Shown piece by piece: positions 5,335 to 45,340 of a stretch of 64,000 nt of DNA; within the stretch, counting starts at the first letter, position 1, and each line of letters begins with the position of its first letter. The notes under the pieces were generated by a model. It was given only the letters and a program-made list of their open reading frames with translations, was not told the DNA's origin and did not search any database. Both the position numbers and the translations under genes were made by a program. This DNA comes from a virus. The stretch lies in the IMG/VR virus record IMGVR_UViG_3300042319_002356, positions 26,768-90,767 of that record. One strand, given 5' to 3'.

Positions 5335-7179
5335 ATGAAATTACTTGATACTCTCAAAAAAAACATTATTCTAGAAGTTTCTGAAAAAGTTAAGAAACAA
5401 CTTATTGATAGATACAAGAATGTTGAGAATGTAACTGATGATGAAGATACAATCGTGTCATATTTAAATGACTTTGAAAAATATAAAAACGGATTACCAT
5501 CTGATAAAAGAGATTTGACAAGGAGAGATTTCACTTATGCCGAATTAAAATCTTTAATTGATGGTAAGAGACAAACAAAAACGACTGGTGACTTATTTAC
5601 CGACTTTAAAGAGAAGGCGAAAGAAAGAGGAGAGAAAGTAAGTGACTCGGAACTTAGAATGTTGTTGAAGAAATTCAATGAGGTTAAGTCAAAATTACCT
5701 GAGAAGTATCAAAACCCTTTGAAATTCAAATATTTGGATTTAGTAAAGTTGATTGGTGAAACTTATCAAAAATTAATTACACCTATCTTGTTGGAAAAAT
5801 TCAAGAAAGAGAATAGTAATTTGACTGATGACCAAATATTATTTTATATTACCCAATATTTAGAAATTTATCCTGAAATTCCATTTAAAACCAAACCGGC
5901 AAATCAAATGTCATTTACCGAGTTTGAGCATTTGATTGATGGAATTATGGCTAAAAAATCTCCAAAAGAAAGAGAATCTAATTCTGATATTGAAGCTATC
6001 CCAACTGTGTATAAGGATAATAACCTAACGATTTTTGCACCGAAGAAGAAAAACGAATGTATTACACTACAACACGGAAGAAGTTGGTGTACAAGTAGAA
6101 TGGGTGGAGGTAATTTGTATTACAACTATCGTTTAGGTAATGAGAGAACATTGTATTATGTTGTTGATGAAGATTTACCATATGATGATTTGAATTTTGC
6201 GTCAGTAATTCTTGTTGACCCTTATGGTGGTATGGCACTCGCTGATGGCTCAAACTCTGGAAAATATAGTGGACACCAAAATGTTCCGTGGAGTGATATC
6301 ATTTCAAAAATACCTAAGTTAAAAGGATTACAGGATTTGTTAAAACCTGAACCATTAACTGCCGAAGAAAAAGAGTTAATTAGAAAATACCAAAGTGTTA
6401 GAGTTCCTGATGATAGAGAATTAAGTACTCTTGGAGACGACAAAGATATTGAATTGTGGATGGAGGTTAATAGCCCAAGAATTTCAAGTTTTCAATATTC
6501 AAATCTTTCTTCGGAATTACAGAAAAAATATATCGCACTTGGATTTGATTTAAATTCTGAACAAATCCAATCATCAAAACCTGAAGTTTTAAAATACTAC
6601 ATTAGTAAAAAAGTTGAAAGTATTAAAACTAAAGGATTAGGTTCATTAACTGAACAAGATATTGCATTATTGAATACTCCGGTATTAGCAAAATTAAAAG
6701 AGGAATTAAAACCAAAATTGGGTCAATCATTAACTGCTGGTAAAGGTGAATTATTGGAAGTTGAATTCCCAAGAAGTGATAACTCTAAATTTGTTGCACT
6801 ATATGGGTTTAATGAACTATTTGAAATGGCTGACCCAAATGTTGATTCAATCATGATTACTAATAAGAGTGATGTGAAAATGGCATTTGACATTCCACCA
6901 TCAATTGGAAGATTTACAAAGGCTGACTCTATCTTCTTTAGTAATATTATTAAAAGTTTACCTGAAGAAATTGCCCAATGTACACAGTTGAATTTCTTAT
7001 CGTTACCTGATAACAAATCTTTGGAGACGTTACCTTGGAATGCGATTAATTCAATTGAATCATTAGGTTTCTTGAATTTAGATGGTAATTCTAATTTGGA
7101 ACTTCCTGAAGAATTCCATAGAAATTGGAAGAGTGGTGACTTTTCAAACGAAGGATTCTATATTAGAAACGAAGATTAA
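5335..7179 (+). CDS. Large tagged protein with 'WCT' domain and leucine-rich-like C-terminus
   Basis: 614 aa. The N-terminus (MKLLDTLKKNIILE) resembles the short tags on other probable virion proteins here. Residues ~1-200 are helical and Lys-rich. Residues ~235-330 contain TLQHGRSWCTSRMGGG followed by TLYYVVDEDLPY and an ILVDPYGG strand, the same layout as the WCTA region in the protein at 49576-50682. The last ~110 residues have spaced Leu/Pro patterns (LPEEIAQCTQLNFLSLPDN) typical of leucine-rich repeats. Domain function unknown. An in-frame extension back to 5221 overlaps the methylase and is unlikely. Confidence 0.8.
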   Translation: MKLLDTLKKNIILEVSEKVKKQLIDRYKNVENVTDDEDTIVSYLNDFEKYKNGLPSDKRDLTRRDFTYAELKSLIDGKRQTKTTGDLFTDFKEKAKERGEKVSDSELRMLLKKFNEVKSKLPEKYQNPLKFKYLDLVKLIGETYQKLITPILLEKFKKENSNLTDDQILFYITQYLEIYPEIPFKTKPANQMSFTEFEHLIDGIMAKKSPKERESNSDIEAIPTVYKDNNLTIFAPKKKNECITLQHGRSWCTSRMGGGNLYYNYRLGNERTLYYVVDEDLPYDDLNFASVILVDPYGGMALADGSNSGKYSGHQNVPWSDIISKIPKLKGLQDLLKPEPLTAEEKELIRKYQSVRVPDDRELSTLGDDKDIELWMEVNSPRISSFQYSNLSSELQKKYIALGFDLNSEQIQSSKPEVLKYYISKKVESIKTKGLGSLTEQDIALLNTPVLAKLKEELKPKLGQSLTAGKGELLEVEFPRSDNSKFVALYGFNELFEMADPNVDSIMITNKSDVKMAFDIPPSIGRFTKADSIFFSNIIKSLPEEIAQCTQLNFLSLPDNKSLETLPWNAINSIESLGFLNLDGNSNLELPEEFHRNWKSGDFSNEGFYIRNED

Positions 7180-14285: not shown

Positions 14286-14313
14286 AAACCCCTCACTTTT
14301 GAGGGGTTTTTTG
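14286..14313 (+). terminator. Rho-independent terminator
   Basis: AAACCCCTCA / TGAGGGGTTT with loop CTTT, followed by a T run. It isolates the downstream signalling operon. Confidence 0.9.
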
Positions 14314-14323: not shown

Positions 14324-14331
14324 GTATTTAT
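14324..14331 (+). promoter_or_regulatory. Late-type motif GTATTTAT
   Basis: GTATTTAT ending 5 nt before ATG 14337; the only start signal between the terminator at 14286-14313 and the kinase operon. Confidence 0.6.
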
Positions 14332-14336: not shown

Positions 14337-15434
14337 ATGAAAATAAACACCAAAATCTCTTTACTTTTCAAAACCATATCAAATTTAGTTTTTGGTGAAA
14401 CAAAAAAAGAAATGTCTGAAACTGATAAGTTTATTGACAGAGCGACAATTGTTTCTATGACTGATGAGAAAGGTAGAATTACCTATGTTAATGAAAAGTT
14501 TGAAAAGATATCAGGTTATAAATTAGATGAGGTTAAAGGTAAAGACCACTCAATAGTTAATTCGGGATTACAACCCGATGGGTATTGGAGAAATATGTAT
14601 AAGACGGTATTGAAGGGTGAGATATGGAATGATATTGTTTGTAATAAAGCAAAAGATGGTAGTCATTACTGGGTTGATACATACATTAGAGCTCGTTTTG
14701 ATGAGGACGGGAAGTTAGAAGGGTTCTCATCAATTAGACAAGATGTTACCAAAATTATGGAACAATCTGTTGAACTAGATAGGAAGAACACCTATTTAGA
14801 ACACGCTGCCAAGATATTAAGACACGATATGCACTCTGGTATTAACACTTATATGCCAAGAGGTCTTAGTTCGTTGGAGAGAAGAATAACTAACGAAGAC
14901 ATTACCAATCTTAAAATTGAAGCCCCACTTAAAATGATTAAAGAGGGACTCAAACATTCTCAGAAAGTTTATAGAGGAGTTTATGAGTTTACCAATCTAG
15001 TGAAAAAGGATGTGGTTCTTAATAAAGAACAATGTAACATCAAGGACATTCTCAAGGACTATTTGTCTTCGACGGCCTACGTCAGTCAGGTAATATTAGA
15101 TGATAATTTACCATCTGTGGAAGTAAACGAACCATTATTTTGTACTGCGGTTGATAACCTTATCCGTAATGGATTAAAGTATAATGACTCAGACACCAAG
15201 TTTGTTAAAATATATTCTGATGAAAACTCAATTTACATTCAGGATAATGGTAGAGGTATCACTCAGGAAGATTTTGAACACCTATCTAAACCATATGTAA
15301 GAAAAGAGGGACAGAAAGAAAGTGGAAGTGGATTAGGATTGAACATTTGTGTTGCAATTCTTAAAGAACACGGGTTTGAAATTACCTGTGAGAAAAATGA
15401 AACTGGAACTAAAATGAAAATTAAATACAAATGA
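14337..15434 (+). CDS. PAS-domain sensor histidine kinase, soluble
   Basis: 365 aa. PAS/PAC domain at residues ~35-145 (ITYVNEKFEKISGY; the segment after it ends SSIRQDVT). The phospho-acceptor H box is LRHDMHSGIN with His163, followed by a helical hairpin and an HATPase_c domain with N box (DNLIRNGLKYN), G1 (DNGRGI) and G2 (GSGLGLNIC). There is no membrane span, so the signal is cytoplasmic. The kinase core is clearly paralogous to that of 16039-17385. First gene of an operon with the receiver at 17378. Two-component kinases are rare in phages. Confidence 0.9.
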   Translation: MKINTKISLLFKTISNLVFGETKKEMSETDKFIDRATIVSMTDEKGRITYVNEKFEKISGYKLDEVKGKDHSIVNSGLQPDGYWRNMYKTVLKGEIWNDIVCNKAKDGSHYWVDTYIRARFDEDGKLEGFSSIRQDVTKIMEQSVELDRKNTYLEHAAKILRHDMHSGINTYMPRGLSSLERRITNEDITNLKIEAPLKMIKEGLKHSQKVYRGVYEFTNLVKKDVVLNKEQCNIKDILKDYLSSTAYVSQVILDDNLPSVEVNEPLFCTAVDNLIRNGLKYNDSDTKFVKIYSDENSIYIQDNGRGITQEDFEHLSKPYVRKEGQKESGSGLGLNICVAILKEHGFEITCEKNETGTKMKIKYK

Positions 15435-16042
15435 AAAAGTTATTATTAATCTGTTTTATGTTAATGTCTTTTGTTGGATATACACAATACCCAATAAAGA
15501 CAATCTTTAAGGGTGATTCAGTTATTATCTTAACCATTGAGCAATCTGAAAAGATTAATGAAATGTTAGATAAAACATCAAAATCTATTAAAGATAGCAA
15601 TAAAAAAACTAAAGAATATGAATCGGAAATTCAAAAGTTAAATACCGTATTGAATAACCAAAATGCGTATATTGATAGTTTATCTAATCTTTTATTACAA
15701 AGATGGACTTGTAATGAAGACATTTACGATAGCATATGGACATGGGCTCTAGGACCTTCAATCATCTACACCATGTATCCTGATGATAGTACGGTTTATG
15801 TAATGGACTTATCACATTATTATATGACAACTAATGATTTTGGTATAGTAATGGCAAGAATGACAGACAAAGAATATCTTAAATACAAAGCATTTATTTC
15901 AAAGTATGGACTTAGTGAGGAAGCGTTTTGGAGATTTAGAAATGAGATGAAAGTAAAAAGACTTAATGATGATAAGATGAAAGATAAGAAAGAATGGAAA
16001 AGTAAAATGGTTCTTGAAAAGAAAGAGGAGGAAGAGAAATGA
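15431..16042 (+). CDS. Exported coiled-coil protein, 203 aa
   Basis: Signal peptide at residues 1-18 (MKKLLLICFMLMSFVGYT) with predicted cleavage just before Gln, in line with the Bacteroidota Q-rule. A coiled coil lies at ~45-90 and a C-terminal Lys/Glu-rich tail. It overlaps HK1 and HK2 genes by 4 nt at each end, so it is made together with them. It may be a periplasmic ligand or partner for the second kinase; this is inference. Confidence 0.75.
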   Translation: MKKLLLICFMLMSFVGYTQYPIKTIFKGDSVIILTIEQSEKINEMLDKTSKSIKDSNKKTKEYESEIQKLNTVLNNQNAYIDSLSNLLLQRWTCNEDIYDSIWTWALGPSIIYTMYPDDSTVYVMDLSHYYMTTNDFGIVMARMTDKEYLKYKAFISKYGLSEEAFWRFRNEMKVKRLNDDKMKDKKEWKSKMVLEKKEEEEK

Positions 16043-17385
16043 GAAATTATTTAATATCTACACTATTTTTAGTTAGTCTTCAATCTTACTCACAAGATAC
16101 CACAGACTTCTCAATTAAACCTAATTGGGTTAGTCCAGAAAAAAATCTAGAAGTAATTCAAAAGGATAGTGTATTAAAATCTAATATCATTACTGATGTG
16201 ATTGATAGAATAATACCTAATTGGGCACCACCCGAAAAAGTATTTGAACAACCAAAAGAAGAACTTTCACCTGAGGATGTGAAACAATTAGAAGAAGACG
16301 TGAAATTCATGTCAGATTTACCACAATCATACAAACAAGTGTCCAAAGAGGATTTAAAAAATGTTTTGGTTTTGATTGATAATAAAATAGTTCAATTAAA
16401 GGCCGAATTGGATGCGTTGTTAAAAGCAAGAAATGCTAACCAGGAAGTTATCAAATCAAAACAAAGTACTTTAACGGTATTAGAAAAAGAAAAGAGTATT
16501 ATCAATTTAACTTTAACTGAAGGTGAATTAAAAGATGAAAACGGAAATTTAATTGGTCAAAACGATGAGTTAAAGATAGAACAAGATAAACTTAAAAAGT
16601 ATCTTTATTTTGCTCTCGGTGGAATCGCCTTACTTGGATTAATTGTTGCGGTAGTATTACAAAGAAAGAAGATACAAGTTCAGGATGTTGAGATTCAAAA
16701 TCAACTTGATGAAATTAATAAGAAGAATAGTTACTTGGAACACGCTGCGAGAATTATCCGACATGATATGCACTCAGGTATTAACACATATATGCCAAGA
16801 GGTATTAGTTCATTAGAGAAAAGATTGACCACTGAGGACATTCAAAAGTTAAAAATTGAAGGAGCTTTGAAGATGGTTAAAGAAGGTCTTAACCACACCC
16901 AACGAGTATATAAAAGTGTATACGAATTTACCAATCTTGTTAAACAAAATGTAGTATTAAATAAAACTATGGTTGATGTTAAGGACTTGGTATGGAAATA
17001 CATTTCACCCAATTCATATAGTTCTCAGGTTGAGATATCTGATTTAGGTCAATTAGAAGTTAATGAGATTTTATTTTGTAATGCGGTTGAGAACTTAATT
17101 AAAAACGGACTAACATATAATGATAGTCAGGATAAGAAAGTTAAAATTTATTTGGACGAGGATTATATAATCGTAGAGGATAATGGTAAAGGTTTTTCTC
17201 AGAAACAATTTGAGAAACATCTTAAAAAATATGCGACAAAGAAAGAGTTTAGTGAAGATGAGAAAGGGTTGGGGTTAAACATTTGTGTTGCAATATTAGA
17301 AGAACATGGTTATAAACTCTCCTGTGAAAAAATTGAGACAGGAACTAAAATGAAAATAAAAATAAAAAAAGAAAAAAATGATTGA
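16039..17385 (+). CDS. Membrane sensor histidine kinase
   Basis: 448 aa. Signal peptide ending before Gln19, a periplasmic region of ~165 residues with a long coiled coil (~110-185), one membrane span at ~188-208, then the kinase core: H box RHDMHSGIN (His242), N box (ENLIKNGLTYN), G1 (EDNGKGF) and G2 (KGLGLNIC). The core is strikingly similar to HK1 at 14337. It contains no PAS domain, so the exported region is the likely sensor. Followed by an 8-nt overlap with the receiver gene. Confidence 0.9.
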   Translation: MRNYLISTLFLVSLQSYSQDTTDFSIKPNWVSPEKNLEVIQKDSVLKSNIITDVIDRIIPNWAPPEKVFEQPKEELSPEDVKQLEEDVKFMSDLPQSYKQVSKEDLKNVLVLIDNKIVQLKAELDALLKARNANQEVIKSKQSTLTVLEKEKSIINLTLTEGELKDENGNLIGQNDELKIEQDKLKKYLYFALGGIALLGLIVAVVLQRKKIQVQDVEIQNQLDEINKKNSYLEHAARIIRHDMHSGINTYMPRGISSLEKRLTTEDIQKLKIEGALKMVKEGLNHTQRVYKSVYEFTNLVKQNVVLNKTMVDVKDLVWKYISPNSYSSQVEISDLGQLEVNEILFCNAVENLIKNGLTYNDSQDKKVKIYLDEDYIIVEDNGKGFSQKQFEKHLKKYATKKEFSEDEKGLGLNICVAILEEHGYKLSCEKIETGTKMKIKIKKEKND

Positions 17386-17809
17386 TTCAATTTTGTTGGT
17401 GGATGATGAAGATTTGTTTCACCTGGTATTTGAAGATAGTTGTTCGTTGTTGGACATCACTCTATCTTTAAAATCACTGAACTCTGCGGATGAGGCAGCT
17501 AAACTATTTGCGGAATGGCAGAAAAATCCAAACGGAAGACCTGAATGTGTGTTTGTGGATTTAAATATCATCGGGTCATCTTTTGATGGTATTGAACTTA
17601 TTAGAAAGATTAACTTTGAGTATGGTAATCACGTTGTTATTGGTATCATATCCTCAAGTAACGAACCTGAAGAACAGGCAAAGGCAGTTCAAGCAGGTGC
17701 TCAATTTTGGATTATTAAGTCAGATGAGATTGAACCAAGATTGGAAGAGTTCAAAAAAGATTATGACGGATTTAAAAACAGAACACAATCGTTTAAAGTA
17801 TATAAGTAA
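17378..17809 (+). CDS. Single-domain response regulator (receiver)
   Basis: 143 aa. Complete receiver domain: acidic pair Asp9/Asp10, phospho-acceptor Asp61 (VFVDLN), conserved hydroxyl in GIISSSN and Lys114 (WIIKS). No DNA-binding or enzyme output domain. It therefore acts by protein-protein contact, in the manner of CheY or Spo0F, possibly on the adjacent membrane proteins. Overlaps both flanking genes. Confidence 0.9.
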   Translation: MIDSILLVDDEDLFHLVFEDSCSLLDITLSLKSLNSADEAAKLFAEWQKNPNGRPECVFVDLNIIGSSFDGIELIRKINFEYGNHVVIGIISSSNEPEEQAKAVQAGAQFWIIKSDEIEPRLEEFKKDYDGFKNRTQSFKVYK

Positions 17810-18492
17810 TGGTAATTGATAAGAATACAAAGAAAGAATTGATTGAAATCTTCCAAACTAAAAACATTGGTTTGGAAGGTAATATCATTAAGCTCATTGA
17901 CCCTGAAGGTGATGAGGAGTTTTCTGAGTATTTAAAACAATGTGTTGATAAGGACGGAGCAACAAGACGCAAACGACTTGAAATGACTAAGAAAGTCCAA
18001 GTTCAAAATGCTGAACTTACCAAATTGAATGATGAGAATCAAAGAATGATGGAAGAACTTCAAAATACTTTAACAAGTATTGAAGAACAAAAAAGTCAAA
18101 TTGAAGCTCAAAATCATGAGTTAATTGAGTGGAAAAAAGAAAACGAAAAAATAGGCGCCGAACTTGTTGAAGCAATGAAGCAATCGGAACAAGCGAGAGT
18201 TATTGCTGAAAACGCAAAGAACGAAGCCGAGAACAACTTGGATTTAATTCAAAAGAAAACTCAATTTGAGTTGATAAATAATATTGTTAAGGTTGCCTTA
18301 TATGTCATCATTGGTGTTGGAGGGATAACTACTGGAATTTATGTTTATTCTATGTCAATAGGAATGGATACGGACATTATCGGCTCCACTTGGAGTAATA
18401 TGTTTGGTATTCTATTAACAAATAGTTTCAGTATTGTCGGAACAATACTTGGTGTAAAATATGGGACAAGTCCTAACAAAGATGATAAATAA
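17809..18492 (+). CDS. Coiled-coil protein with two C-terminal membrane spans
   Basis: 227 aa. Cytoplasmic N-terminus, long coiled coil at ~55-150, then membrane spans at ~164-184 and ~197-219, ending KYGTSPNKDDK. The hydrophobic pair followed by a short charged tail recalls small phage holins, though the large coiled-coil domain is unusual. It begins on the receiver's stop codon, so it is a candidate target of the receiver. Function is inference. Confidence 0.75.
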   Translation: MVIDKNTKKELIEIFQTKNIGLEGNIIKLIDPEGDEEFSEYLKQCVDKDGATRRKRLEMTKKVQVQNAELTKLNDENQRMMEELQNTLTSIEEQKSQIEAQNHELIEWKKENEKIGAELVEAMKQSEQARVIAENAKNEAENNLDLIQKKTQFELINNIVKVALYVIIGVGGITTGIYVYSMSIGMDTDIIGSTWSNMFGILLTNSFSIVGTILGVKYGTSPNKDDK

Positions 18493-18510
18493 ACCTAAAA
18501 AATAAAAAAA

Positions 18511-19020
18511 ATGAGTAGATTAAAAAAAATGTTATTTGGAGAAACACCTTATGTGAAGGTGGAAGATAAAAATCGTTTCTATTATATGTTGCAACAAATG
18601 CAAGCTAATAGATGGAAGATTACAGGGATTGTATTGTTCTTGTTCTTCTTCATAATTTTTGGTATCAATATGGCAGTAATGTTCAACATTGAAATTGCTG
18701 AAAACTGGAAGGAGATGTTATTAATCCTTTTGGGTGCTTTTGTTGGTAACCTTAATAAAGTTGTGGATTATTGGTTTAACTCTGAAGATAGAGATAAAAT
18801 GTTAATCCAAAAGGTTGACGAGGAAGACGGAAGTAGTTTATCCAACGTAAGTGAATTCCCAACAGCTCCAAGACCTCCACAAGAACCAATTATTATTGTT
18901 AAAAAAGAAGAAGTTGTTTCTGAACCTGAACCAATGGTTTATGAAGAACCACTTCCATATGAGGAACCTTTGGCCGATGATGGATATGAAACTCCACCTT
19001 CAGATGAAGAAAATATCTAA
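18511..19020 (+). CDS. Double-spanning membrane protein with Pro/Glu tail (holin-like)
   Basis: 169 aa. Spans at residues ~34-57 and ~69-88, the second followed by NKVVDYWFNSEDRDKM, similar in layout to phage holins that end a span with '(V)NYYFGSSxxSxxK'. The C-terminal ~70 residues are acidic and Pro-rich (EPEPMVYEEPLPYEEP). Last gene before the terminator at 19029. Could be a holin or an anchored adaptor. Confidence 0.7.
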   Translation: MSRLKKMLFGETPYVKVEDKNRFYYMLQQMQANRWKITGIVLFLFFFIIFGINMAVMFNIEIAENWKEMLLILLGAFVGNLNKVVDYWFNSEDRDKMLIQKVDEEDGSSLSNVSEFPTAPRPPQEPIIIVKKEEVVSEPEPMVYEEPLPYEEPLADDGYETPPSDEENI

Positions 19021-19028
19021 AAAAAAAG

Positions 19029-19056
19029 AAACCCGGTTTGATAAATCGGGTTTTTT
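19029..19056 (+). terminator. Rho-independent terminator
   Basis: AACCCGGTTT / AAATCGGGTT hairpin plus TTTTTT closes the signalling operon. The TTG of the next promoter (19038-19040) sits inside it. Confidence 0.88.
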
Positions 19057-30855: not shown

Positions 30856-32724
30856 ATGGGAAAAATAATTGGTATTGATTTGGGAACAACGAATTCGTGT
30901 GTTGCCGTAATGGAAGGTTCAGAACCTGTCGTAATTACAAACAGTGAAGGTAAAAGAACGACTCCTTCAATCATTGGATTTGCCAGTGATGGTGATAGAA
31001 AGATTGGTGACCCTGCAAAACGTCAGGCGGTTACTAATCCTGAAAAAACAATTCACTCAATTAAAAGATTTATGGGAACTAGTTACACTGAAAGTAAAGG
31101 TGAAGTAAAACGTGTTCCTTATAAAGTTGTTAAGGGTACTGGTGATACTCCTCGTGTTCAGATTGATGACCGTAAGTTTTCACCACAAGAAATTTCAGCA
31201 ATGGTTCTTCAGAAGATGAAACAAACTGCTGAGGATTATTTGGGTACTGAAGTTACTGAAGCGGTCATCACAGTACCAGCATACTTCAACGACGCTCAAC
31301 GTCAGGCTACAAAAGAAGCTGGTGAGATTGCAGGTCTTACAGTTAAACGTATTATTAACGAACCAACTGCGGCCGCATTAGCTTACGGACTTGATAAGAA
31401 AGGTTCGGATATGAAAGTTGTTGTATTTGACTGTGGTGGTGGAACTCACGACGTATCAATCTTGGAACTTGGAGATGGTGTGTTTGAAGTATTAGCGACT
31501 GATGGTGACACACATTTGGGTGGTGATGACTTTGATAATGCAATCATTGACTGGTTGGTTAAAGAATTCCAAGATGAGAATGGATTGGATTTGTCAAAAG
31601 ACCCAATGGCGTTACAACGTCTTCGTGAAGGGGCTGAAAAGGCTAAGATTGAATTGTCCTCAACTTCTTCAACTGAAATCAACCTACCATACATTATGCC
31701 GGTTGATGGTGTTCCAAAACACTTGGTGAGAACTTTATCTAAAGCAAAATTTGAACAACTTGTTGATAAATTGGTCCAAAGAACAATTGAACCATGTAAG
31801 AAGGCTATGGAGAACGCAAACCTTACAGTTGGTGAAATTGATGAAATTATTTTGGTTGGAGGTTCAACTCGTATTCCGGCAATCCAAGAAGCGGTTAAGA
31901 AATTCTTTGGTAAGGAACCATCAAAGGGTGTTAATCCTGATGAAGTAGTTGCTCTTGGTGCGGCAATTCAAGGTGGAGTATTGGCCGGTGATGTGAAAGA
32001 TGTATTGTTGTTGGACGTAACTCCACTTTCATTAGGTATTGAAACAATGGGAGGAGTATTTACAAAGTTGATTGAAGCTAACACGACAATCCCAACCAAG
32101 AAATCACAGATATTCTCAACCGCAGTTGATAACCAACCATCAGTTGAAATCCACGTATTACAAGGTGAAAGAGCGATGGCTAAAGATAACAGAACCATTG
32201 GACGTTTCCACTTGGATGGATTACCACCGGCAATGAGAGGAGTTCCACAAATTGAAGTTGTTTTTGACATTGATGCTAACGGTATTATTAATGTGTCAGC
32301 AATTGACAAAGGAACTGACAAACAACAAAATATTCGTATTGAAGCGTCATCAGGACTTTCAAAAGAAGAAATTGAAAGAATGAAACAAGAAGCTGAAATG
32401 AATGCTGAGGCGGACAAGAAAGTTAAAGAAGATGCTGAAACAATTAATCAAGCTGACTCAATGATTTTCCAAATTGAAAAATCTTTGAAGGATATTGAAG
32501 ATAAATTGACGGACGAACAAAAATCAGAAATTAATTCTTCATTACAAGAGTTGAAAGATGCTCATTCTACAAAGGATGTTGATAAGATTAAAACCTCAAT
32601 GGATAAAGTTAACACAACGTTCCAAAGTATCTCCTCTGACCTATACTCCCAAGGTTCAGGAGAAACAAATGAACAAACAGACCGAGAGGTTAATGATGTT
32701 GACTTTGAAGAAGTTAAAGGTTAA
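30856..32724 (+). CDS. dnaK: DnaK chaperone (Hsp70)
   Basis: 622 aa, close to bacterial length (~638). ATPase domain with [46 protein letters not shown] and [11 protein letters not shown]; substrate domain with [15 protein letters not shown]; then the helical lid. [10 protein letters not shown] replaces the usual VFDLGGGTFD (Cys and His substitutions). It folds or holds virion or host proteins with DnaJ (3181). Codon usage in this gene is more GC-rich at third positions than neighbours, consistent with high expression or a host origin. Confidence 0.97.
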
Positions 32725-38458: not shown

Positions 38459-38531
38459 GCGTCTGTAGCTCAATTGGTAGAGTACTGGTCTCCAAAACCA
38501 GGTGTTAGAGGTTCGAGTCCTCTCAGGCGTG
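38459..38531 (+). tRNA. tRNA-Trp(CCA)
   Basis: Anticodon arm CTGGT-CTCCAAA-ACCAG; acceptor GCGTCTG/CAGGCGT; T loop TTCGAGT. Confidence 0.93.
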
Positions 38532-38537
38532 CAACAA

Positions 38538-38610
38538 GCCTCCTTAGCTCAGTTGGTAGAGCACTTGTTTTGTAAACAAGATGTCGTTGGTTCGAATCCG
38601 ACAGGAGGCT
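38538..38610 (+). tRNA. tRNA-Thr(TGT)
   Basis: Anticodon arm CTTGT-TTTGTAA-ACAAG; acceptor GCCTCCT/AGGAGGC; T loop TTCGAAT. Confidence 0.95.
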
Positions 38611-38617
38611 CAAACAT

Positions 38618-38692
38618 TCTCACGTAGCTCAGGTGGTTTAGAGCATTTGACTGATATTCAAAAGGTCGTTGGTTCGAGTCCAACCGTGAGAA
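38618..38692 (+). tRNA. tRNA-Ile(GAT)
   Basis: Anticodon arm TTTGA-CTGATAT-TCAAA; acceptor TCTCACG/CGTGAGA. Confidence 0.92.
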
Positions 38693-38700
38693 CTTAATTT

Positions 38701-38775
38701 CTAGGTGTCGGGCAGATGGTTATACCCGCATGGTTTGGGACCATGATATCGTAGGTTCGAATCCTACCACTTAGA
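38701..38775 (+). tRNA. tRNA-Pro(TGG)
   Basis: Anticodon arm CATGG-TTTGGGA-CCATG; acceptor CTAGGTG/CACTTAG. Confidence 0.93.
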
Positions 38776-38781
38776 CAACAA

Positions 38782-38856
38782 TGGGCTGTTGGTATAGACG
38801 GTTAACACACTTGCTTTGCACGCATGAGTCCCCGGTTCGAGTCCGGGATGGTCCAC
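38782..38856 (+). tRNA. tRNA-Ala(TGC)
   Basis: Anticodon arm CTTGC-TTTGCAC-GCATG (one T-T mismatch); wobble-rich acceptor TGGGCTG/TGGTCCA; T loop TTCGAGT. Confidence 0.85.
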
Positions 38857-38869
38857 TAATCGGAAGTAC

Positions 38870-38940
38870 GTAAAAAATGGGTGGAACTTGTGAAAAATGA
38901 GAGTAAAACCACTCTTAACGTAAAAAATGGGTGGAGAATA
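38870..38940 (+). repeat. Short direct repeat between tRNAs
   Basis: ACGTAAAAAATGGGTGGA occurs twice (about 38867-38884 and 38919-38936), with no frame. It may mark a recombination scar or a processing site. Confidence 0.6.
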
Positions 38941-38954
38941 TTTGAAAGAAATAT

Positions 38955-39030
38955 GGGGTGATAGCACAGGTGGTCAGTTCGCGTCGGTCTGAAAAACCGA
39001 AGATGTGTGGTTCAACTCCCACTCACCCCA
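38955..39030 (+). tRNA. tRNA-Phe(GAA)
   Basis: Anticodon arm TCGGT-CTGAAAA-ACCGA; acceptor GGGGTGA/TCACCCC. Confidence 0.95.
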
Positions 39031-39044
39031 CGAGGTCCTGAATT

Positions 39045-39107
39045 AACAGGACAACCCCACCTCCGATATGGCAGTCAGTCCGTTAATCTGACGAAGTGGG
39101 TTTTTTA
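39045..39107 (+). terminator. Branched hairpin with T tract
   Basis: CCCAC ... GTGGG closes an inner GTCAG/CTGAC stem and is followed by TTTTTT. Preceded by a GTCCTG/CAGGAC hairpin. Probably a terminator or RNA-processing element in the tRNA operon. Confidence 0.55.
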
Positions 39108-39110
39108 TAA

Positions 39111-39186
39111 GCGGGTGTTGCATAGTGGCCGATTGCGTCTGCCTTCCAAGCAGAAATCACCGTGGGTTCGAATCCCACTACCCGCT
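39111..39186 (+). tRNA. tRNA-Gly(TCC)
   Basis: Anticodon arm TCTGC-CTTCCAA-GCAGA; acceptor GCGGGTG/TACCCGC. Confidence 0.94.
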
Positions 39187-39266
39187 CCTAGTGTCTCGGT
39201 AAGCTCTGACGAAAGTCAACTACGAGGTCTCGGTGGACAGAAGGCCTCTGATTCCACCCACTTTTT

Positions 39267-39339
39267 GGCTCCATGGTTGAATGGCAACAATGCCGGCTTG
39301 TCACGCCGTGTGGTACGGGTTCGAATCCCGTTGGAGCCG
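39267..39339 (+). tRNA. tRNA-Asp(GTC)
   Basis: Anticodon loop TTGTCAC in stem CCGGC/GCCGT; acceptor GGCTCCA/TGGAGCC; G discriminator typical of Asp. Confidence 0.94.
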
Positions 39340-39400
39340 CAAAAAGAGGAATAACTTGTGTAGGTGCCTCAGGGGACTGCAGCCCCACTACACTCCATTT

Positions 39401-39471
39401 TGTCCCTTCATCTAATGGCAGGATATCAGATTTTGATTCTGAGTATGTTGGTTCGAATCCAGCAGGGACAA
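39401..39471 (+). tRNA. tRNA-Gln(TTG)
   Basis: Anticodon arm TCAGA-TTTTGAT-TCTGA; acceptor TGTCCCT/AGGGACA. A hairpin GTGTAG...CTACAC precedes it at ~39358-39392. Confidence 0.93.
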
Positions 39472-39495
39472 CTTTTTTAATTCAAATTTTTTTAT

Positions 39496-39503
39496 TATAT
39501 TTG
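39496..39503 (+). promoter_or_regulatory. Promoter -7 box TATATTTG
   Basis: Exactly 4 nt before ATG 39508. Confidence 0.55.
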
Positions 39504-39507
39504 CTCT

Positions 39508-40119
39508 ATGAACTCAACTAATTTAAAATTAAAATACTCAATTGGGAAAATTGATGAAATTAAAAATCTTGATGGTGACACTAAAGAAAGGTTGTTACTT
39601 GAGTTATTGGGTGAGATGTCTAAAGATAAGAACTCTTCTACATTTAGAGAGGGTGTTACTCTTGGGGTATTAGGTAAAAACCAAAGTGTTACTAAATTGG
39701 GTTATGATTCTGATGATGAACCAATTGAGGTTAAACCTAAGAATATTTCATCAGACTCTAATAAAAAATTTGATGGGTCTGGTAATTTTAGTGATTTTAC
39801 TTGGGCGAGACATAAAAAATATAAGAATGACAACGTCAAAATGATGGTGTCAGGATTTTTAGACGGTAAAGTTTTATTTGTTATTAGTTTTGATTACAAT
39901 TCAAATGATTTTGTAACTGAGATTGAAAGACAATTAACTAAACATTTACCTGATGGTGATGTTAGCAGTAGATATGTTAGAAGTGTTAAATTTAGTTATA
40001 AGCATTTTAACACTTCTGATAGTTTAAAAATTGAATATTTGTCTCCTGAGTTTAAAACATTTGAGAACAAATTCACTAAACCTTTTTATTCCTTTATACT
40101 TAAATATGAATCTAATTAA
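39508..40119 (+). CDS. Hypothetical protein, 203 aa
   Basis: Soluble; N-terminal helical half, then DGSGNFSDFTWARHKKYK and a beta-rich second half with KVLFVISFDYNSNDF. No family recognised. Its end overlaps the methyltransferase start by 14 nt. Confidence 0.65.
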   Translation: MNSTNLKLKYSIGKIDEIKNLDGDTKERLLLELLGEMSKDKNSSTFREGVTLGVLGKNQSVTKLGYDSDDEPIEVKPKNISSDSNKKFDGSGNFSDFTWARHKKYKNDNVKMMVSGFLDGKVLFVISFDYNSNDFVTEIERQLTKHLPDGDVSSRYVRSVKFSYKHFNTSDSLKIEYLSPEFKTFENKFTKPFYSFILKYESN

Positions 40120-40924
40120 TGAAATAGTTTTAGGGGATGTTCTTGAAACTTTAAAACAAATACCTGATAATAGTTTTGACTTAGGTGTTACTTCACCACC
40201 ATACAATAAACAAAAGAATAGGAAAGGGGTGTTGGTAAAGGATATTAAGTATTCGGATATTACTGATAATTCTGATGAATCTGATTACCAAGTTGAACAA
40301 ATTGAAATACTAAATGAACTATATAGAACTATAAAACCTGGTGGTTCATTTTTCTATAATCATAAAATTAGATGGGATAAAGGTGAAATGTTCCATCCGA
40401 TTGATTGGTTGAAAAAAACTGATTGGGTGGTAAAACAAGAGATTGTTTGGGACCGTAATATTGCTGCTAACATTAGAGGATGGAGATTTTGGCAAGTTGA
40501 GGAAAGAATATATTGGCTATATAAACCAAAAAACAAAGGTGATAATGGAGCTGAGCTAATGTCAAAACACGCTTTGATGACATCAGTTTGGAGACTTAGA
40601 CCTGAGATGGATAAGACGGTAGTATTCAATCACCCGGCACCATTCCCAATTGAGATACCGACAAGGTGCATCTATTCAATTTTGGATGATTTGAAAAATT
40701 GTTTGGTGATTGACCCTTATATGGGGAGCGGAACAAGTGCGGTTGCAACTAGACTACTCGGACACAATTATTTTGGTATTGATATTTCCGAGGAGTATAT
40801 TGGTAATGCTAATTTTAGATTGAACAATATTACTGAAAAAGAGATTGAAAGATTCAACAATGAATTGTCGTTACATAAAGTGAATAAAACGTATAAACAA
40901 AGGAAAGAGGAAAAACTTAAATAA
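40106..40924 (+). CDS. DNA methyltransferase (N4-cytosine/N6-adenine, beta class)
   Basis: 272 aa. Catalytic motif IV TSPPYNKQKN precedes the SAM motif VIDPYMGSGTSAVA, the order of beta-class enzymes such as those with CcrM-like folds. FGIDISEEYI is motif II. Start ATG 40106 gives the canonical INEIVLGDVLETL opening. Modifies adenine or cytosine in an unknown site. It is a distant paralogue of 58711-59571. Confidence 0.92.
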   Translation: MNLINEIVLGDVLETLKQIPDNSFDLGVTSPPYNKQKNRKGVLVKDIKYSDITDNSDESDYQVEQIEILNELYRTIKPGGSFFYNHKIRWDKGEMFHPIDWLKKTDWVVKQEIVWDRNIAANIRGWRFWQVEERIYWLYKPKNKGDNGAELMSKHALMTSVWRLRPEMDKTVVFNHPAPFPIEIPTRCIYSILDDLKNCLVIDPYMGSGTSAVATRLLGHNYFGIDISEEYIGNANFRLNNITEKEIERFNNELSLHKVNKTYKQRKEEKLK

Positions 40925-40925
40925 T

Positions 40926-41117
40926 ATGAAAACACTTTGGAAAACATTAATCTATCCATTTCAGATGATATGGGATAGTATCTTTGATAACGACGCACAT
41001 AAGATTGTATCAAAACAAGGACAGAAGGAACTATTGATACGGATAATGAAACACGACGAGGAAGCTGGGATGTATGATGTGGATTTCAGTGAAAAGTCAA
41101 AAGAAAATTTGGATTAA
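40926..41117 (+). CDS. Small hypothetical protein, 63 aa
   Basis: Follows the methyltransferase by 1 nt. Amphipathic N-terminus (KTLWKTLIYPFQMIWDSIF) and charged C-terminus. Function unknown. Confidence 0.55.
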   Translation: MKTLWKTLIYPFQMIWDSIFDNDAHKIVSKQGQKELLIRIMKHDEEAGMYDVDFSEKSKENLD

Positions 41118-41139
41118 CAAGAACATCACAGTATATTTG
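41109..41139 (+). promoter_or_regulatory. Bacteroidota-type promoter
   Basis: TTG 41109-41111, 20 nt, TATATTTG 41132-41139, 4 nt before ATG 41144. Confidence 0.75.
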
Positions 41140-41143
41140 TCAA

Positions 41144-41509
41144 ATGGAAAAGGAATTTGTACCCTACGAGTTGGCGGTTAAACTCAAAGCACTTGGATTT
41201 GATGAAGAATGTTTGAGTTATTATTTTAATAAACAACTATCATTTGGTTCTAAAACTTCTTATGGTGAAGTAGTAGAAGCACCACTCTTCCAACAAGCAT
41301 TCCGTTGGTTTAGAGAGAAGTACGAGTTATTTCATTCAACTAACTACCAAGATGATAATTCTGGTTCAGGTAGTTTTGATTACGAGATTCTTGATAAAAG
41401 AGGGAAACATCAACAAGATGATGACTCTCCTGAATTTGATACCTATGAAGAAGCAGAACTTGCTTGTCTTACCAAGTTAATTGAAATTGTTGAACAAACT
41501 AAAAGATAA
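41144..41509 (+). CDS. Hypothetical protein, 121 aa
   Basis: Resembles a widespread phage protein type: YELAVKLKALGFDEECLSYY, APLFQQAFRWFREKYELF and a final EEAELACLTKLIEI helix. Role unknown. Confidence 0.75.
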   Translation: MEKEFVPYELAVKLKALGFDEECLSYYFNKQLSFGSKTSYGEVVEAPLFQQAFRWFREKYELFHSTNYQDDNSGSGSFDYEILDKRGKHQQDDDSPEFDTYEEAELACLTKLIEIVEQTKR

Positions 41510-41521
41510 TTAAAATAAAAT

Positions 41522-41552
41522 TTGGACTGACAGGAACTTTGATATATATTTG
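41522..41552 (+). promoter_or_regulatory. Bacteroidota-type promoter
   Basis: TTGGAC 41522-41527, 17 nt, TATATTTG 41545-41552; 21-nt leader to ATG 41574. Confidence 0.7.
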
Positions 41553-41573
41553 TAATCACAAACCGATAAGAAT

Positions 41574-41870
41574 ATGACACAGAAACAACAAGATGCTCTT
41601 GACAACATAATGGATAACTTTGACTTTGACCAAGTTCATAAGGTAATGGTATTCCTTAATTGGAAATGGGCGAATAGTAATGGTGGCCTTGAGGTACCTG
41701 AAAAATATGAATTAAGAAGTGAAGCAAGACGACTTTTGAAAATGGCGATTGAGGAAAAGACGACTGTATCAACTGGCGGATTCTTAGCTGAATACATTGA
41801 TGAAGATGGTGGATGGATGGATTTGAAGTTTGTTGTATCAGATTGGGATGAAGAGGTAAAAAATGGGTAA
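41574..41870 (+). CDS. Hypothetical protein, 98 aa
   Basis: Helical N-terminal half (MDNFDFDQVHKVMVFLNWKW) and VSTGGFLAEYIDEDGG loop, a pattern common in uncharacterised phage proteins. Role unknown. Confidence 0.7.
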   Translation: MTQKQQDALDNIMDNFDFDQVHKVMVFLNWKWANSNGGLEVPEKYELRSEARRLLKMAIEEKTTVSTGGFLAEYIDEDGGWMDLKFVVSDWDEEVKNG

Positions 41871-41873
41871 GGT

Positions 41874-42050
41874 ATGACAAATAAAGAAAAAATTGTAACC
41901 TTTAGTTGTAGTAAATCTGTTCATATATACGGACCAAAAAGTGGATTACTACCAAGGTCTCCGTATAGAACTCACCCAACCATTGATGAAGCGAAAAAGT
42001 TTTTAACTGAAAGGGAAGGGGATTATGAAATAAAATTAGTATATTTGTAA
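41874..42050 (+). CDS. Small hypothetical protein, 58 aa
   Basis: Starts 3 nt after the preceding stop. Mixed composition (GPKSGLLPRSPYRTHPTIDEAKKFL). Its last codons form the -7 box (TATATTTG 42040-42047) for the following tRNA-like gene. Confidence 0.5.
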   Translation: MTNKEKIVTFSCSKSVHIYGPKSGLLPRSPYRTHPTIDEAKKFLTEREGDYEIKLVYL

Positions 42051-42057
42051 AATAATT

Positions 42058-42177
42058 AGTCAGGTAATGCGTAATGTGGAAACGGCATCACATCCTGAAA
42101 ACACCACGGTCCATAACCATTTGGACGCGAGAAGTATAAAGGTTGCATTGTTGGGGGTTCGAATCCTCTCCTGACTA
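42058..42177 (+). ncRNA. tRNA-like RNA, AGTCAGG family (120 nt)
   Basis: Acceptor AGTCAGG/CCTGACT and a T arm with loop TTCGAAT, but the ~85-nt middle folds as an enclosing AATGC/GCATT helix with hairpins ATGTG/CACAT and GTCCA/TGGAC. No 7-nt anticodon arm is identifiable. One of four elements with the same acceptor. Confidence 0.6.
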
Positions 42178-42334
42178 CACGGTCTGGCTCATCACCAGAT
42201 AGTATGTCCAATACGATGAGAAATGGTATGATAACCATAGGGAACTTCTGATAGGGAAACGCTCTATCCGGTCTAACTAGCCGCGGGAAATATCAAAGAG
42301 GATGCAAAGAACAACGTGCTCTCGTAGTTAACAT
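42178..42334 (+). other. Structured spacer between tRNA-like genes
   Basis: No frame. Contains TCTGG/CCAGA and GATAG/CTATC hairpins with a GGAAACG loop. Possibly pre-tRNA spacer or part of a longer structured RNA. Confidence 0.35.
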
Positions 42335-42443
42335 AGTCAGGTGGCGGAATTGGTTTGCCTTAGCAGTAGCAGACACTACACAAAAATTGGCCGAATGTCA
42401 ACGATACCAAAAGCTAATACAGGTTCGAATCCTGTCCTGACTA
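42335..42443 (+). ncRNA. tRNA-like RNA, AGTCAGG family (109 nt)
   Basis: Acceptor AGTCAGG/CCTGACT, Leu/Ser-type D arm GGCGGAATTGG, T arm ACAGG-TTCGAAT-CCTGT. The stem in anticodon position, TTAGC/GCTAA, encloses 48 nt rather than 7. Confidence 0.6.
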
Positions 42444-42506
42444 CTAACGGGAAACGCTCACTAACCCTTATAATAGTGTGATGACAGCTCGGAAAGACGG
42501 CAAAAT

Positions 42507-42594
42507 AGTCAGGTGGTGGAATTGGTTGCCATACAAACTTGGAGGGTTACTTACTTTAAGTCCCTGAATACAGGTTCGAATCCTGTCCTGACTA
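42507..42594 (+). ncRNA. tRNA-like RNA, AGTCAGG family (88 nt)
   Basis: Length of a class II tRNA, same acceptor and T arm as its neighbours. The best anticodon arm, CAAAC-TTGGAGG-GTTAC (anticodon GGA, Ser), has two mismatched pairs. An alternative AGGG-ACTT/AAGT-CCCT hairpin competes. Confidence 0.6.
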
Positions 42595-42622
42595 CAAAAA
42601 TTAAAATTAAAAAACAAAAAGT

Positions 42623-42739
42623 ATGATTGGGATTCTATTGTTTATATTATTGGGTACGTGGGTGATAATAACGGAAGGAAACATTTTTTTAAGAAAAAAA
42701 GATGATGATGGTGACCACTATCACCAATCAATGGATTGA
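42623..42739 (+). CDS. Small membrane peptide, 38 aa
   Basis: IGILLFILLGTWVIITEG span followed by a charged His/Asp tail (KKDDDGDHYHQ). Located between tRNA-like genes after an A-rich leader. Could be regulatory or a toxin-like peptide; no family known. Confidence 0.45.
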   Translation: MIGILLFILLGTWVIITEGNIFLRKKDDDGDHYHQSMD

Positions 42740-42746
42740 TAAAGGT

Positions 42747-42950
42747 AATGAGTAAGAGATACTCAACGGTCTTCGAATCAAGACCTAAAGAATGATTCCG
42801 CAGAATGTCTACGGCGCGAGTGGGACATCGTGGGATAAAGGGACTGACACAATCCCTCCCAGTAGTGTTGGATGTTTTTAACGGGTAAGACCAGCAGGTT
42901 TTTAAGAAATAGAAAACCGATATATCTACTCACCTATAATCTCAGGGTGG
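42747..42950 (+). ncRNA. Structured RNA (~200 nt)
   Basis: Ends can pair (GAGTAAGAGATA with TATATCTACTC); internal GAGT/ACTC and GGTCTT/AAGACC hairpins. No frame. Lies directly upstream of tRNA-Leu(TAG). Confidence 0.45.
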
Positions 42951-42959
42951 GGAACTTGC

Positions 42960-43034
42960 CCCCTTGGCGGAATAGGCAGACGCACATCGCTTAGAACGAT
43001 GTTTTAGTGAGAGTTCGAGTCTCTCAGGGGGTAC
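42960..43034 (+). tRNA. tRNA-Leu(TAG), short variable loop
   Basis: Acceptor GCCCCCT/AGGGGGT, Leu-like D arm GGCGGAATAGGCAGACGC, anticodon arm CATCG-CTTAGAA-CGATG, T arm GAGAG/CTCTC. The variable region is only 7 nt (TTTTAGT), unlike the long arm normal for bacterial Leu tRNAs. Confidence 0.85.
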
Positions 43035-43049
43035 AAATCCCATAATAGT

Positions 43050-43057
43050 ATATTTAT
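43050..43057 (+). promoter_or_regulatory. Late-type motif ATATTTAT
   Basis: 4 nt before ATG 43062. Confidence 0.6.
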
Positions 43058-43061
43058 GATT

Positions 43062-43685
43062 ATGAAAAATATATTATTAGTTCTTTTAACATTTTGGGTA
43101 TCCATTTCTTTTTCCCAATCTTATGATGTGGTTATTAAAAAACAAAACTACACTTCTTACTTTGAATATGATTATGTAAATCCTACGGTTGTGACTTATA
43201 AGTTATATCACGGAGGTGGTGATTGTAAGAGAGACAAGTTCTATTTTAAAAACGACGAGTCATTTAAGACTGCGACAGACCAAGATTATTCTAAATCAGG
43301 TTATGACAAGGGACATATGGCAAATGCTGAAGACTTTGCTTATGATTGTACTTTGGATGAATTAACATTCAGATATTATAATTGTGTTCCACAACACCCA
43401 AGAATGAATAGAGGTCCTTGGAAGAAAGTTGAAACTGAAATTAGAAAGTGGAGTCAGGATAAAGAGTTGTTAGTTATATGTATTAATGTATTTGGTGATA
43501 AGGACTTACCTAATACAAATGTTGCCATCCCAACGGAGTGTATTAAACTTGTTTATGACTATAAAACAAAGAAGCCAATTGCGGGTTATGTCTTCACAAA
43601 CACGGCAAATCCTGTAATGACTCAGATGACACCTGACGAAATTGTTAAAAAGTATTCTATTACAATTAAGACCTTCTTAAATTAA
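43062..43685 (+). CDS. Exported DNA/RNA non-specific endonuclease (NUC1 type)
   Basis: 207 aa. The signal peptide ends ...SISFS before Gln. The catalytic region SGYDKGHMANAEDFAY replaces the DRGH motif of the beta-beta-alpha nuclease family with DKGH; YYNCVPQHPRMNRGPW gives the metal-binding Asn. CINVFGDKDLPNTNVAIPTECIKLVYD is also typical. It should degrade DNA/RNA in the periplasm or outside. ATG 43062 fits motif spacing better than ATG 43056. Confidence 0.88.
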   Translation: MKNILLVLLTFWVSISFSQSYDVVIKKQNYTSYFEYDYVNPTVVTYKLYHGGGDCKRDKFYFKNDESFKTATDQDYSKSGYDKGHMANAEDFAYDCTLDELTFRYYNCVPQHPRMNRGPWKKVETEIRKWSQDKELLVICINVFGDKDLPNTNVAIPTECIKLVYDYKTKKPIAGYVFTNTANPVMTQMTPDEIVKKYSITIKTFLN

Positions 43686-43718
43686 ACAACTATTAATTAT
43701 TGGTTTATGTCTTAGTTG

Positions 43719-43726
43719 ATATTTAT
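43719..43726 (+). promoter_or_regulatory. Late-type motif ATATTTAT
   Basis: 4 nt before ATG 43731. Confidence 0.6.
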
Positions 43727-43730
43727 CAGC

Positions 43731-45308
43731 ATGAGACACCTATTCTTCCTCCTATTATTAATCCCCAATCTTATACTTGCACAATGTGCTGGGATACCGT
43801 CATTCACATTAAATCCCGCTCCTGTTAATGGTAATTACGAACCAGGGACTGTTGTAACTATGTGTTACACTTTAAATGGTTGGGATACTTCATTTGGTTC
43901 AAATTGGTTGGAGGGGTTTAGTATTAACTTAGGGCCTGGTTGGGTATCTTATACACCTATATCAGCACCTGATGATTGTGGAGGAGCAACACCACCACAA
44001 GGATGGTTATGGTTGGAAAGTGTTACCAATAATGCGGGGACATTAACTGTTGGACCGGGTTACTTTTACGAGGGACCACAAGGACCTACTGATGGAAATC
44101 CGGGAAATGATTGGGGTGACTTTGGAACAAATTGTTTATGGACTTTTTGTGTCCAATTACAAGTATCCGACCAATGTGACCCACTTTCTTTATTGATTGA
44201 AGTTACACCTTATGCTGACGGAACGATGGGAAGTTGGGGAAATGAATCTTGTTTTGATGGACCATTTCAGGTATTCAATGGGGCAATCGCAGGAGGAGAT
44301 GTTGATACGTCACCAATAACTTATGTGACGGATTCAGTTTGTGTTGGACTTATGCAACAATATTCAGTCGTTAATACACCTGGGTCAACATATGAATGGA
44401 GTGCTAATGGTGGATATTTTGGTATTGACCAAAATGGTTCAAATGTTGCGGATGTATATTGGGGAGCTTGGCCTGGAACTTATACATTATATGTTCAGGA
44501 AACAACTGCTGAAGGATGTGTTGGGGATGAAATAACTTTGGATATTACGGTTGTTGATACCTTGATTACATTTGGACAACCAAGAACAGGTCTTTGTTTG
44601 GGAGATTCAACAAAACTATTTGCGTCACCATCAGGGGGATTTTGGGCCGGTGAGAATTTGGTTGGTAATACATTCACAGGTTATAATTCAGGAACCTATC
44701 ACCCAACTTATTTTGTCAACATACACGGATGTCCTGTTGCAGATTCTGTTGAAGTGTTTGTTAGAGAACCATTTACATCACCAATAATTTATACGACATT
44801 ACTAGATATTGATTTATGTCAAAATTCACCTGAACAATTTTATTATGTAAATGAAGAAGTTGGTGTTGAATATACTTGGCATGTTGATGGTATCTTACAA
44901 GAAGATACTGATTTTGAATTATATCAGAATTGGTATGATACAACAATGTTACATACAATAACAGTTTATGGGACGGACACCATTGGATGTGAAAGTGAAC
45001 TCGGTTATATATTAATTGATGTTGAAGCATGTCACAGATTATTTGTTCCAATATCATTCACACCAAATGGTGATGGGTACAATGATGCATTTAAAATTGT
45101 TGGTGAATCAATATATGAACCACATATGAAAATATTCAATAAAGATGGTATGGTTGTGTATGAAATCAAATCAATAACTCAAACTTGGAATGGAAATGAT
45201 GGAACAGGATATTTTTGTCCGAATGGAGTTTATAACTGGGTTATGACTTATAGGGACGATAGAGGGATTGGTCACACACAAAAAGGTCATATTGTTTTGA
45301 TTCGTTAA
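43731..45308 (+). CDS. Exported protein with T9SS type B (gliding-associated) C-terminal domain
   Basis: 525 aa. The signal peptide ends LILA before Gln. The central ~400 residues are beta-rich, Cys-containing and Trp/Gly/Asn-rich (repeat-like 'PGTYTLYVQET', 'GSTYEWSANGG'), resembling PKD/Ig-like surface domains. The C-terminal ~85 residues have SFTPNGDGYNDAF, KIFNKDGMVVYE, WNGNDGTG and CPNGVYNWVMTYRD: the type B sorting domain of Bacteroidota type IX secretion cargo. In the host these domains direct export to the cell surface. A phage gene with this domain is unusual. Confidence 0.88.
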   Translation: MRHLFFLLLLIPNLILAQCAGIPSFTLNPAPVNGNYEPGTVVTMCYTLNGWDTSFGSNWLEGFSINLGPGWVSYTPISAPDDCGGATPPQGWLWLESVTNNAGTLTVGPGYFYEGPQGPTDGNPGNDWGDFGTNCLWTFCVQLQVSDQCDPLSLLIEVTPYADGTMGSWGNESCFDGPFQVFNGAIAGGDVDTSPITYVTDSVCVGLMQQYSVVNTPGSTYEWSANGGYFGIDQNGSNVADVYWGAWPGTYTLYVQETTAEGCVGDEITLDITVVDTLITFGQPRTGLCLGDSTKLFASPSGGFWAGENLVGNTFTGYNSGTYHPTYFVNIHGCPVADSVEVFVREPFTSPIIYTTLLDIDLCQNSPEQFYYVNEEVGVEYTWHVDGILQEDTDFELYQNWYDTTMLHTITVYGTDTIGCESELGYILIDVEACHRLFVPISFTPNGDGYNDAFKIVGESIYEPHMKIFNKDGMVVYEIKSITQTWNGNDGTGYFCPNGVYNWVMTYRDDRGIGHTQKGHIVLIR

Positions 45309-45327: not shown

Positions 45328-45340
45328 TATTCACAAACAA

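Follow-up and report, generated by a model that had tools for sequence, protein, structure and literature searches.

Classical accounts attribute the timing of phage lysis to holin clocks; in a few phages, antiholins responding to superinfection also play a part. Lysis inhibition has been described for T4, in which the holin is T and the antiholins are RI and RIII, and also for ICP1 and N4 (PMC11413866, PMC8385771, PMC7182436, PMC12642591). In streptococci and staphylococci, the LytST two-component system controls transcription of the chromosomal lrgAB genes (PMC3507848, PMC6997555) and offers the nearest link between a two-component system and holin-like membrane proteins. Here we describe an operon encoding two histidine kinases (HK1 and HK2), an exported coiled-coil protein (CC), a response regulator (RR), and two membrane proteins (M1 and M2), found in a 64,000-nucleotide (nt) stretch of viral DNA (the window; positions 26,768 to 90,767 of IMG/VR record IMGVR_UViG_3300042319_002356, a linear 90,767-bp record referred to below as G000). 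We think it probable that this operon encodes a phage-only two-component relay belonging to the lysis program, in which RR acts on M1 post-translationally and times the failure of the membrane.

Such a relay would share with lysis inhibition in T4, ICP1, and N4 the tuning of lysis time to a signal by phage proteins, an executor in the membrane, and a periplasmic input (here CC and HK2). The antiholins of those phages bind the holin directly, whereas here a kinase-receiver relay intervenes. No PHROG match to T, RI, or RIII was obtained for CC, M1, or M2, and the contigs were not searched for these three proteins. RR resembles the CheY-type single-domain response regulators in its full set of phosphotransfer residues, its lack of an output domain, and its proposed action by protein contact, but its module is phage encoded, includes a dedicated partner with a coiled coil and a transmembrane (TM) hairpin, and lies in a lysis context rather than among motility genes. 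The LytST-lrgAB pairing likewise ties a two-component system to holin-like membrane proteins; in that system control is transcriptional, whereas the phage RR has no DNA-binding domain and its proposed action is post-translational. Like class II holins, M1 has two predicted TM helices and a charged C terminus and lies ahead of the endolysin in many relatives, but it differs from them in its cytoplasmic stalk of ~150 residues and in matching no holin family above the cutoff. Profile searches matched HK1 and HK2 to phrog_857 (kinase) and RR to phrog_731, but these matches cover the proteins partly, and both families are annotated without a function, an M1 partner, or a link to lysis. By analogy, the module would be lysis-inhibition-like in purpose and CheY-like in chemistry, while belonging to neither class.

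Comparison of gene order among relatives indicates that the conserved core is the three-gene unit HK-RR-M1. A search of viral contigs with HK1 found 106 relatives, the best 80 of which were kept, and a search with an M1 alignment found at least 531 IMG/VR stretches that encode M1. The three genes occupy positions -1, 0, and +1 on one strand, with occasional insertions; in all 154 testable loci RR immediately precedes M1, a kinase is present in 133 of 134, and RR is single copy in 41 of 41 contigs. The only adequately flanked M1 locus without a kinase within 2.2 kb of M1 is L151 (upstream of position 2344). Conservation of the whole six-gene order, for which a preliminary description of this DNA had proposed a search, is confined to this core and does not extend to the six-gene unit; CC is an add-on of some lineages, usually found with HK2, and M2 is likewise a lineage-specific add-on. 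The insertions seen in the module are a GIY-YIG gene, a patatin-like phospholipase, and a sulfotransferase-like gene. The GIY-YIG-like gene, probably a homing endonuclease, lies between HK2 and RR in L003, L020, L021 (12951 to 13673), and L024, and the patatin-like phospholipase (Pfam E value, 5.4e-20), a possible extra membrane-attacking enzyme, lies between HK and RR in L015 (9317 to 10309).

Among ~85,000 GTDB species genomes, M1 was found in one (L088), which was rejected as a bacterial copy because inspection of the contig revealed PhoH-like and terminase-like genes, marking it as a phage contig. On the evidence of these searches, the HK-RR-M1 module is virus only. Against 50,697 INPHARED phages, the operon, HK2, RR, M1, and M2 had no match, and HK1 had generic kinase/PAS matches only. 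The preliminary description knew of no described phage system with this layout, and the open-access literature searched yielded no report of a lysis module built from a phage kinase and receiver. The module is real, widespread, and, as far as can be checked, undescribed.

HK and RR carry the sequence hallmarks of a two-component system, between whose members phosphotransfer would be expected. HK1 (14337 to 15434; 365 amino acids [aa]; no TM segment in the window copy) is a PAS histidine kinase with Pfam matches to PAS_9 and HATPase_c (2.7e-16) and with the H, N, G1, and G2 motifs. HK2 (16039 to 17385; 448 aa) joins an exported coiled-coil sensor region, through a TM segment at residues 185 to 203, to a kinase core matching HATPase_c (6.5e-12). 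The predicted phosphoacceptors, His163 of HK1 and His242 of HK2, both fall inside a common RHDMHSG box, and the four motifs are kept in 102 of 103 distinct kinase cores. RR (17378 to 17809; 143 aa) is a single-domain receiver in which Response_reg (4.1e-9) is the sole Pfam match, with no output domain, DNA binding or other; residues D9, D10, D61, S92, and K114 are present in the window copy and invariant across 22 homologues. All operon genes are under purifying selection (ratio of nonsynonymous to synonymous substitution rates [dN/dS], ~0.02 to 0.3), and RR, with the lowest values (0.02 to 0.07), is by this measure the most conserved gene of the module. The Pfam, membrane-segment, and residue checks thus bear out the preliminary description of a PAS kinase, an exported coiled-coil protein, a membrane kinase, and an output-less receiver that retains its phosphotransfer residues.

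The same account had derived the kinase pair from a duplication. The two cores are indeed 61% identical over 224 aa, but a single duplication giving one HK2 clade is too simple a history: with kinase roles assigned by gene position, monophyly of the HK2-position kinases was rejected (approximately unbiased [AU] test, p = 0.0002). Kinase inputs vary among relatives, comprising PAS, PAS-PAS, GAF-PAS, and GAF-PAS-PAS arrangements with or without N-terminal TM segments. A short protein with an N-terminal TM segment and a GAF-like region, the latter recognized by eye, recurs near the module in L029 (13654 to 14262), L063, and others (cluster c22), and may be a further sensor of the same circuit.

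M1 (17809 to 18492; 227 aa), the proposed effector of RR, consists of an N-terminal unit, a heptad coiled-coil stalk, and a C-terminal hairpin of two TM segments, predicted at residues 153 to 171 and 198 to 216. The AlphaFold2 model contains a long helix (residues 36 to 184) and a second helix (residues 189 to 219) with a pLDDT of 84.7, and its pTM of 0.32 makes the global arrangement uncertain. Across 87 sequences, the spacing between the KRL and WSN motifs is 140, 133, 105, or 98 residues, with differences of exactly 7, 35, and 42. Because stalk lengths differ only by multiples of seven, the heptad register of the coiled coil is, on this alignment, under selection. Invariant residues are concentrated in the N-terminal EGN unit and in the second TM segment (ILLTN.FSI.GT..G.K), where T204/N205, S208, G211/T212, and G215 would share one helix face apt for packing or polar lining. 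M1 has little periplasmic sequence. Family searches and the fold comparison identified no M1 relative of known function; the one real fold match was an uncharacterized phage protein, 54% identical. Two candidate relationships were rejected: M1 as a named holin, for which the best match was Phage_holin_9 (E value, 0.0069, in 5 of 27 members), and kinship of M1 with M2, whose profiles aligned over 14 columns only (hhalign probability, 1.9). By its predicted architecture, M1 is not a plain holin.

The neighborhood of the module points to lysis. Its commonest neighbor is an endolysin with PG_binding_1 and GH19 domains (phrog_181, 1.9e-67), and among 16 contigs of at least 80 kb, 13 have GH19 no more than 5 kb from RR, compared with 1.35 expected (nominal P of ~3e-12, an overly small value given the relatedness of the contigs). 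M1 stands beside the endolysin in many relatives, among them G015, G017, G019, and G025, where the endolysin is ~690 bp from RR. More telling than this count, GH19 occurs in four orientations, and the RR+M1 tree needs ~17 state changes to account for them in a tally that treats the lack of GH19 as one state; proximity has therefore been kept or regained despite rearrangement. Unrelated hydrolases occur in the same neighborhood (LDT-like [phrog_33083], GH108 in L042, and M15 in L146), as do Phage_holin_4_1 and Phage_holin_10 in some cassettes. Of the 54 distinct modules whose flanks are complete, 40 lie within 6 kb of a peptidoglycan hydrolase and 44 within that distance of a lysis marker of some kind.

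The genes of L010 run LDT-GH19-HK-CC-HK-RR-M1-c177/c128, so that the module occupies the holin slot. The c177 and c128 genes, found in L002, L004, and L010, overlap with a frame offset of 1 (by 80 nt in L002 and L010), and in L002, the nearest relative of the window, the pair follows M2. Neither protein matched a spanin family, and c128, with its signal peptide and C-terminal TM segment, showed no lipobox; the two resemble a spanin pair in arrangement. A separate observation comes from L025 (9200 to 9891), where a three-TM protein with a GFYFGSS end (phrog_38283), followed by a small lipoprotein, lies directly upstream of HK-RR-M1 and by eye looks like a holin/spanin pair. The connection to lysis drawn in the preliminary description thus gains from recurrent proximity to four kinds of hydrolase, holins, and a spanin-like pair, and is well supported by gene neighborhoods at the level of the family; in G000 itself, GH19 and LDT have no match.

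Several points weigh against a relay that controls lysis through M1. Ten of the 54 modules, several of them in the clade of the window, have no recognized lysis gene within 6 kb (one of the ten is L146, whose M15 hydrolase was spotted by eye afterwards). Besides the missing GH19/LDT match in the 90.8-kb G000 fragment, where no endolysin adjoins the module, the GH19 gene of G001 is 58 kb away. Because of the G000 result, and because the exceptions fall partly in the clade of the window, the lysis link for the window phage rests on its relatives. M1 has no holin family match above the cutoff, and some cassettes contain recognized holins, so M1 need not be a holin; together with the long cytoplasmic stalk, these facts do not support the plain label "holin-like" first given to M1. 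No homologue was encountered that would make the membrane proteins unrelated structural parts. The contact between RR and M1 is deduced from linkage only, and the mechanism as a whole is a plausible proposal drawn from genomics.

Part of this evidence would also suit a relay that governs another late envelope process, such as superinfection exclusion or membrane protection, and that lies near lysis genes because both are late and envelope directed. M1 is not a recognized holin and adjoins recognized holins in some lineages, and several modules, including some in the clade of the window, have no nearby endolysin. We nevertheless consider this explanation unlikely, since the proximity to lysis genes survives ~17 changes of arrangement and involves nonhomologous hydrolases, and since the L010 module sits inside a lysis cassette.

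Phospho-control of M1 is the best reading of the module because M1 is the sole constant nonkinase partner of the output-less RR and is found with it in lysis cassettes. Under this reading, one or two kinases would phosphorylate RR in response to cytoplasmic inputs through PAS and/or GAF domains, and in the window HK2 and the exported CC would read the envelope. RR would act directly on the coencoded M1, which it would probably contact close to the stalk's N-terminal end, and the heptad-locked stalk would relay the resulting change to the TM hairpin. There, the helix rich in small and polar residues may permit or prevent the membrane failure of the holin type through which the neighboring endolysin gains the chance to act. 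M1 would then be a phospho-controlled holin or a regulator of one, and the kinases would make lysis time depend on a signal rather than solely on a clock. We infer the phosphotransfer from HK to RR, the binding of phosphorylated RR to M1, the gating together with its sign (whether it delays or triggers lysis), and the signal, for which the preliminary description offered superinfection or envelope state as candidates. The L010 arrangement and the adjacency of M1 to endolysins suggest that M1 is itself the holin, and the cassettes with recognized holins suggest that it regulates one.

Information could also flow the other way, with M1 as an upstream receptor or scaffold whose hairpin reads the state of the membrane (e.g., holin-induced depolarization), and whose chemoreceptor-like stalk informs HK and RR; the target of that kinase-receiver pair would then lie elsewhere, e.g., in the host. 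Heptad-preserving insertions and deletions are known from the cytoplasmic coiled coil of chemoreceptors, and those in the M1 stalk are of the same kind; the scant periplasmic sequence, the conserved TM hairpin, and the classical holins nearby in some lineages also fit. The kinases already have sensor domains, however, and no further protein is a constant partner of RR, which makes this arrangement improbable. Least probable of all is host takeover, in which RR would serve host two-component systems as a decoy or phosphate sink and M1 would do no more than tether it to the membrane: a receiver without an output domain fits this idea, as lone receivers can serve as phosphate sinks, but phage kinases with intact catalytic motifs adjoin RR at nearly every locus, and a decoy leaves the strict linkage to M1 and the lysis context unexplained.

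All six genes of the operon (14337 to 19020; HK1-CC-HK2-RR-M1-M2) run in the same direction on the plus strand. Neighboring genes overlap by 4 (HK1/CC), 4 (CC/HK2), 8 (HK2/RR), and 1 (RR/M1) nt, and a gap of 18 nt separates M1 from M2. Strong plus-strand terminator-like hairpins flank it, one at 14286 to 14309 that ends the upstream unit (10-bp stem, 5 GC pairs, T tail) and one at 19026 to 19056 that ends the operon (14-bp stem, T tail). They are the top two of 6 detected (3.7 expected by chance) and, with every open reading frame (ORF) in place, bracket the operon exactly as first described.

A candidate (late) promoter element, GTATTTAT (14324 to 14331, plus strand), lies 13 nt ahead of the HK1 start. 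Of the 83 plus-strand ORFs, 11 have its pattern, RTATTTAT, in the 45 nt ahead of them (against an expectation of 1.1), in most cases at -12/-13; this enrichment agrees with the late-type motif noted earlier. Genes led by it include HK1, an endonuclease VII-like gene, and an M23-peptidase gene; the pattern would fit a marker of a late gene class without proving that there is one. The starts that it precedes include those at 5335, 22864, 25874, 32777, 33387, 43731, 49576, 54573, and 60374, being 4 to 5 nt ahead of the ATG at most of these nine and 22 nt upstream at 5335. If RTATTTAT were a -10 element, the transcripts with the 4- to 5-nt spacing would be leaderless or nearly so. The T4-type late promoter TATAAATA was not enriched ahead of ATG codons and was set aside; RTATTTAT is the motif in use.

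CC (15431 to 16042, plus strand; 203 aa) has a signal peptide by membrane-segment prediction, and its structural model was too poor in confidence to interpret. M2 (18511 to 19020, plus strand; 169 aa) is small and highly conserved. Both membrane proteins had been described as double-span, which the predicted segments bear out for M1; M2 has one clear TM segment (residues 32 to 50), the second (~66 to 86) being visible by eye only. Among the matches listed, M2 occurs in 30 loci, most of which lack the HK-RR-M1 module. In L174, L175, and L193, its start immediately follows an LDT endolysin, and other M2 loci lie 4 to 5 kb from GH19 and Phage_holin_4_1-like genes. Searches against holin family models gave no match for M2, its only hit being phrog_38564 (unknown function); from its genomic surroundings, a holin-like role is plausible. 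In the module-free phages L176, L179, L185, and L188 (M2 at ~6000 to 6400), M2 lies beside a lipoprotein/exported gene that is CsgG-like by eye and has no Pfam match, and large low-complexity exported proteins are also nearby.

The gene content of the window, which includes primase, SbcCD-like, sigma factor (Sigma70 r2/r4), and endonuclease VII-like genes, indicates a fragment of a large phage. Seventeen tRNA genes are interspersed among protein genes from 38459 to 55912, and a full-length phage DnaK homologue lies at 30856 to 32724; in many contigs, a relative of it is separated from the module by just a few genes. The signal peptides, by their style, point to Bacteroidota as the host, and freshwater Bacteroidota are the likely hosts of module phages.

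Whether the module is a widespread, virus-only form of lysis control, in which a phosphorelay with interchangeable sensors converges post-translationally on M1, a holin or regulator of a holin gated by phosphorylation, and lysis time is chosen from cytoplasmic and periplasmic signals, is in our judgment evenly balanced. By anatomy, the module is a variation on the two-component system; should the proposed mechanism hold, it would be a new kind of lysis control. It would add a new receiver output, a membrane hairpin ending a coiled-coil stalk, and would give a function to an unannotated family whose IMG/VR members number over 500. Many environmental phages would then use modular sensors to work out when to lyse, much as bacteria regulate their responses, and the module would provide a genetic handle on what these phages sense.

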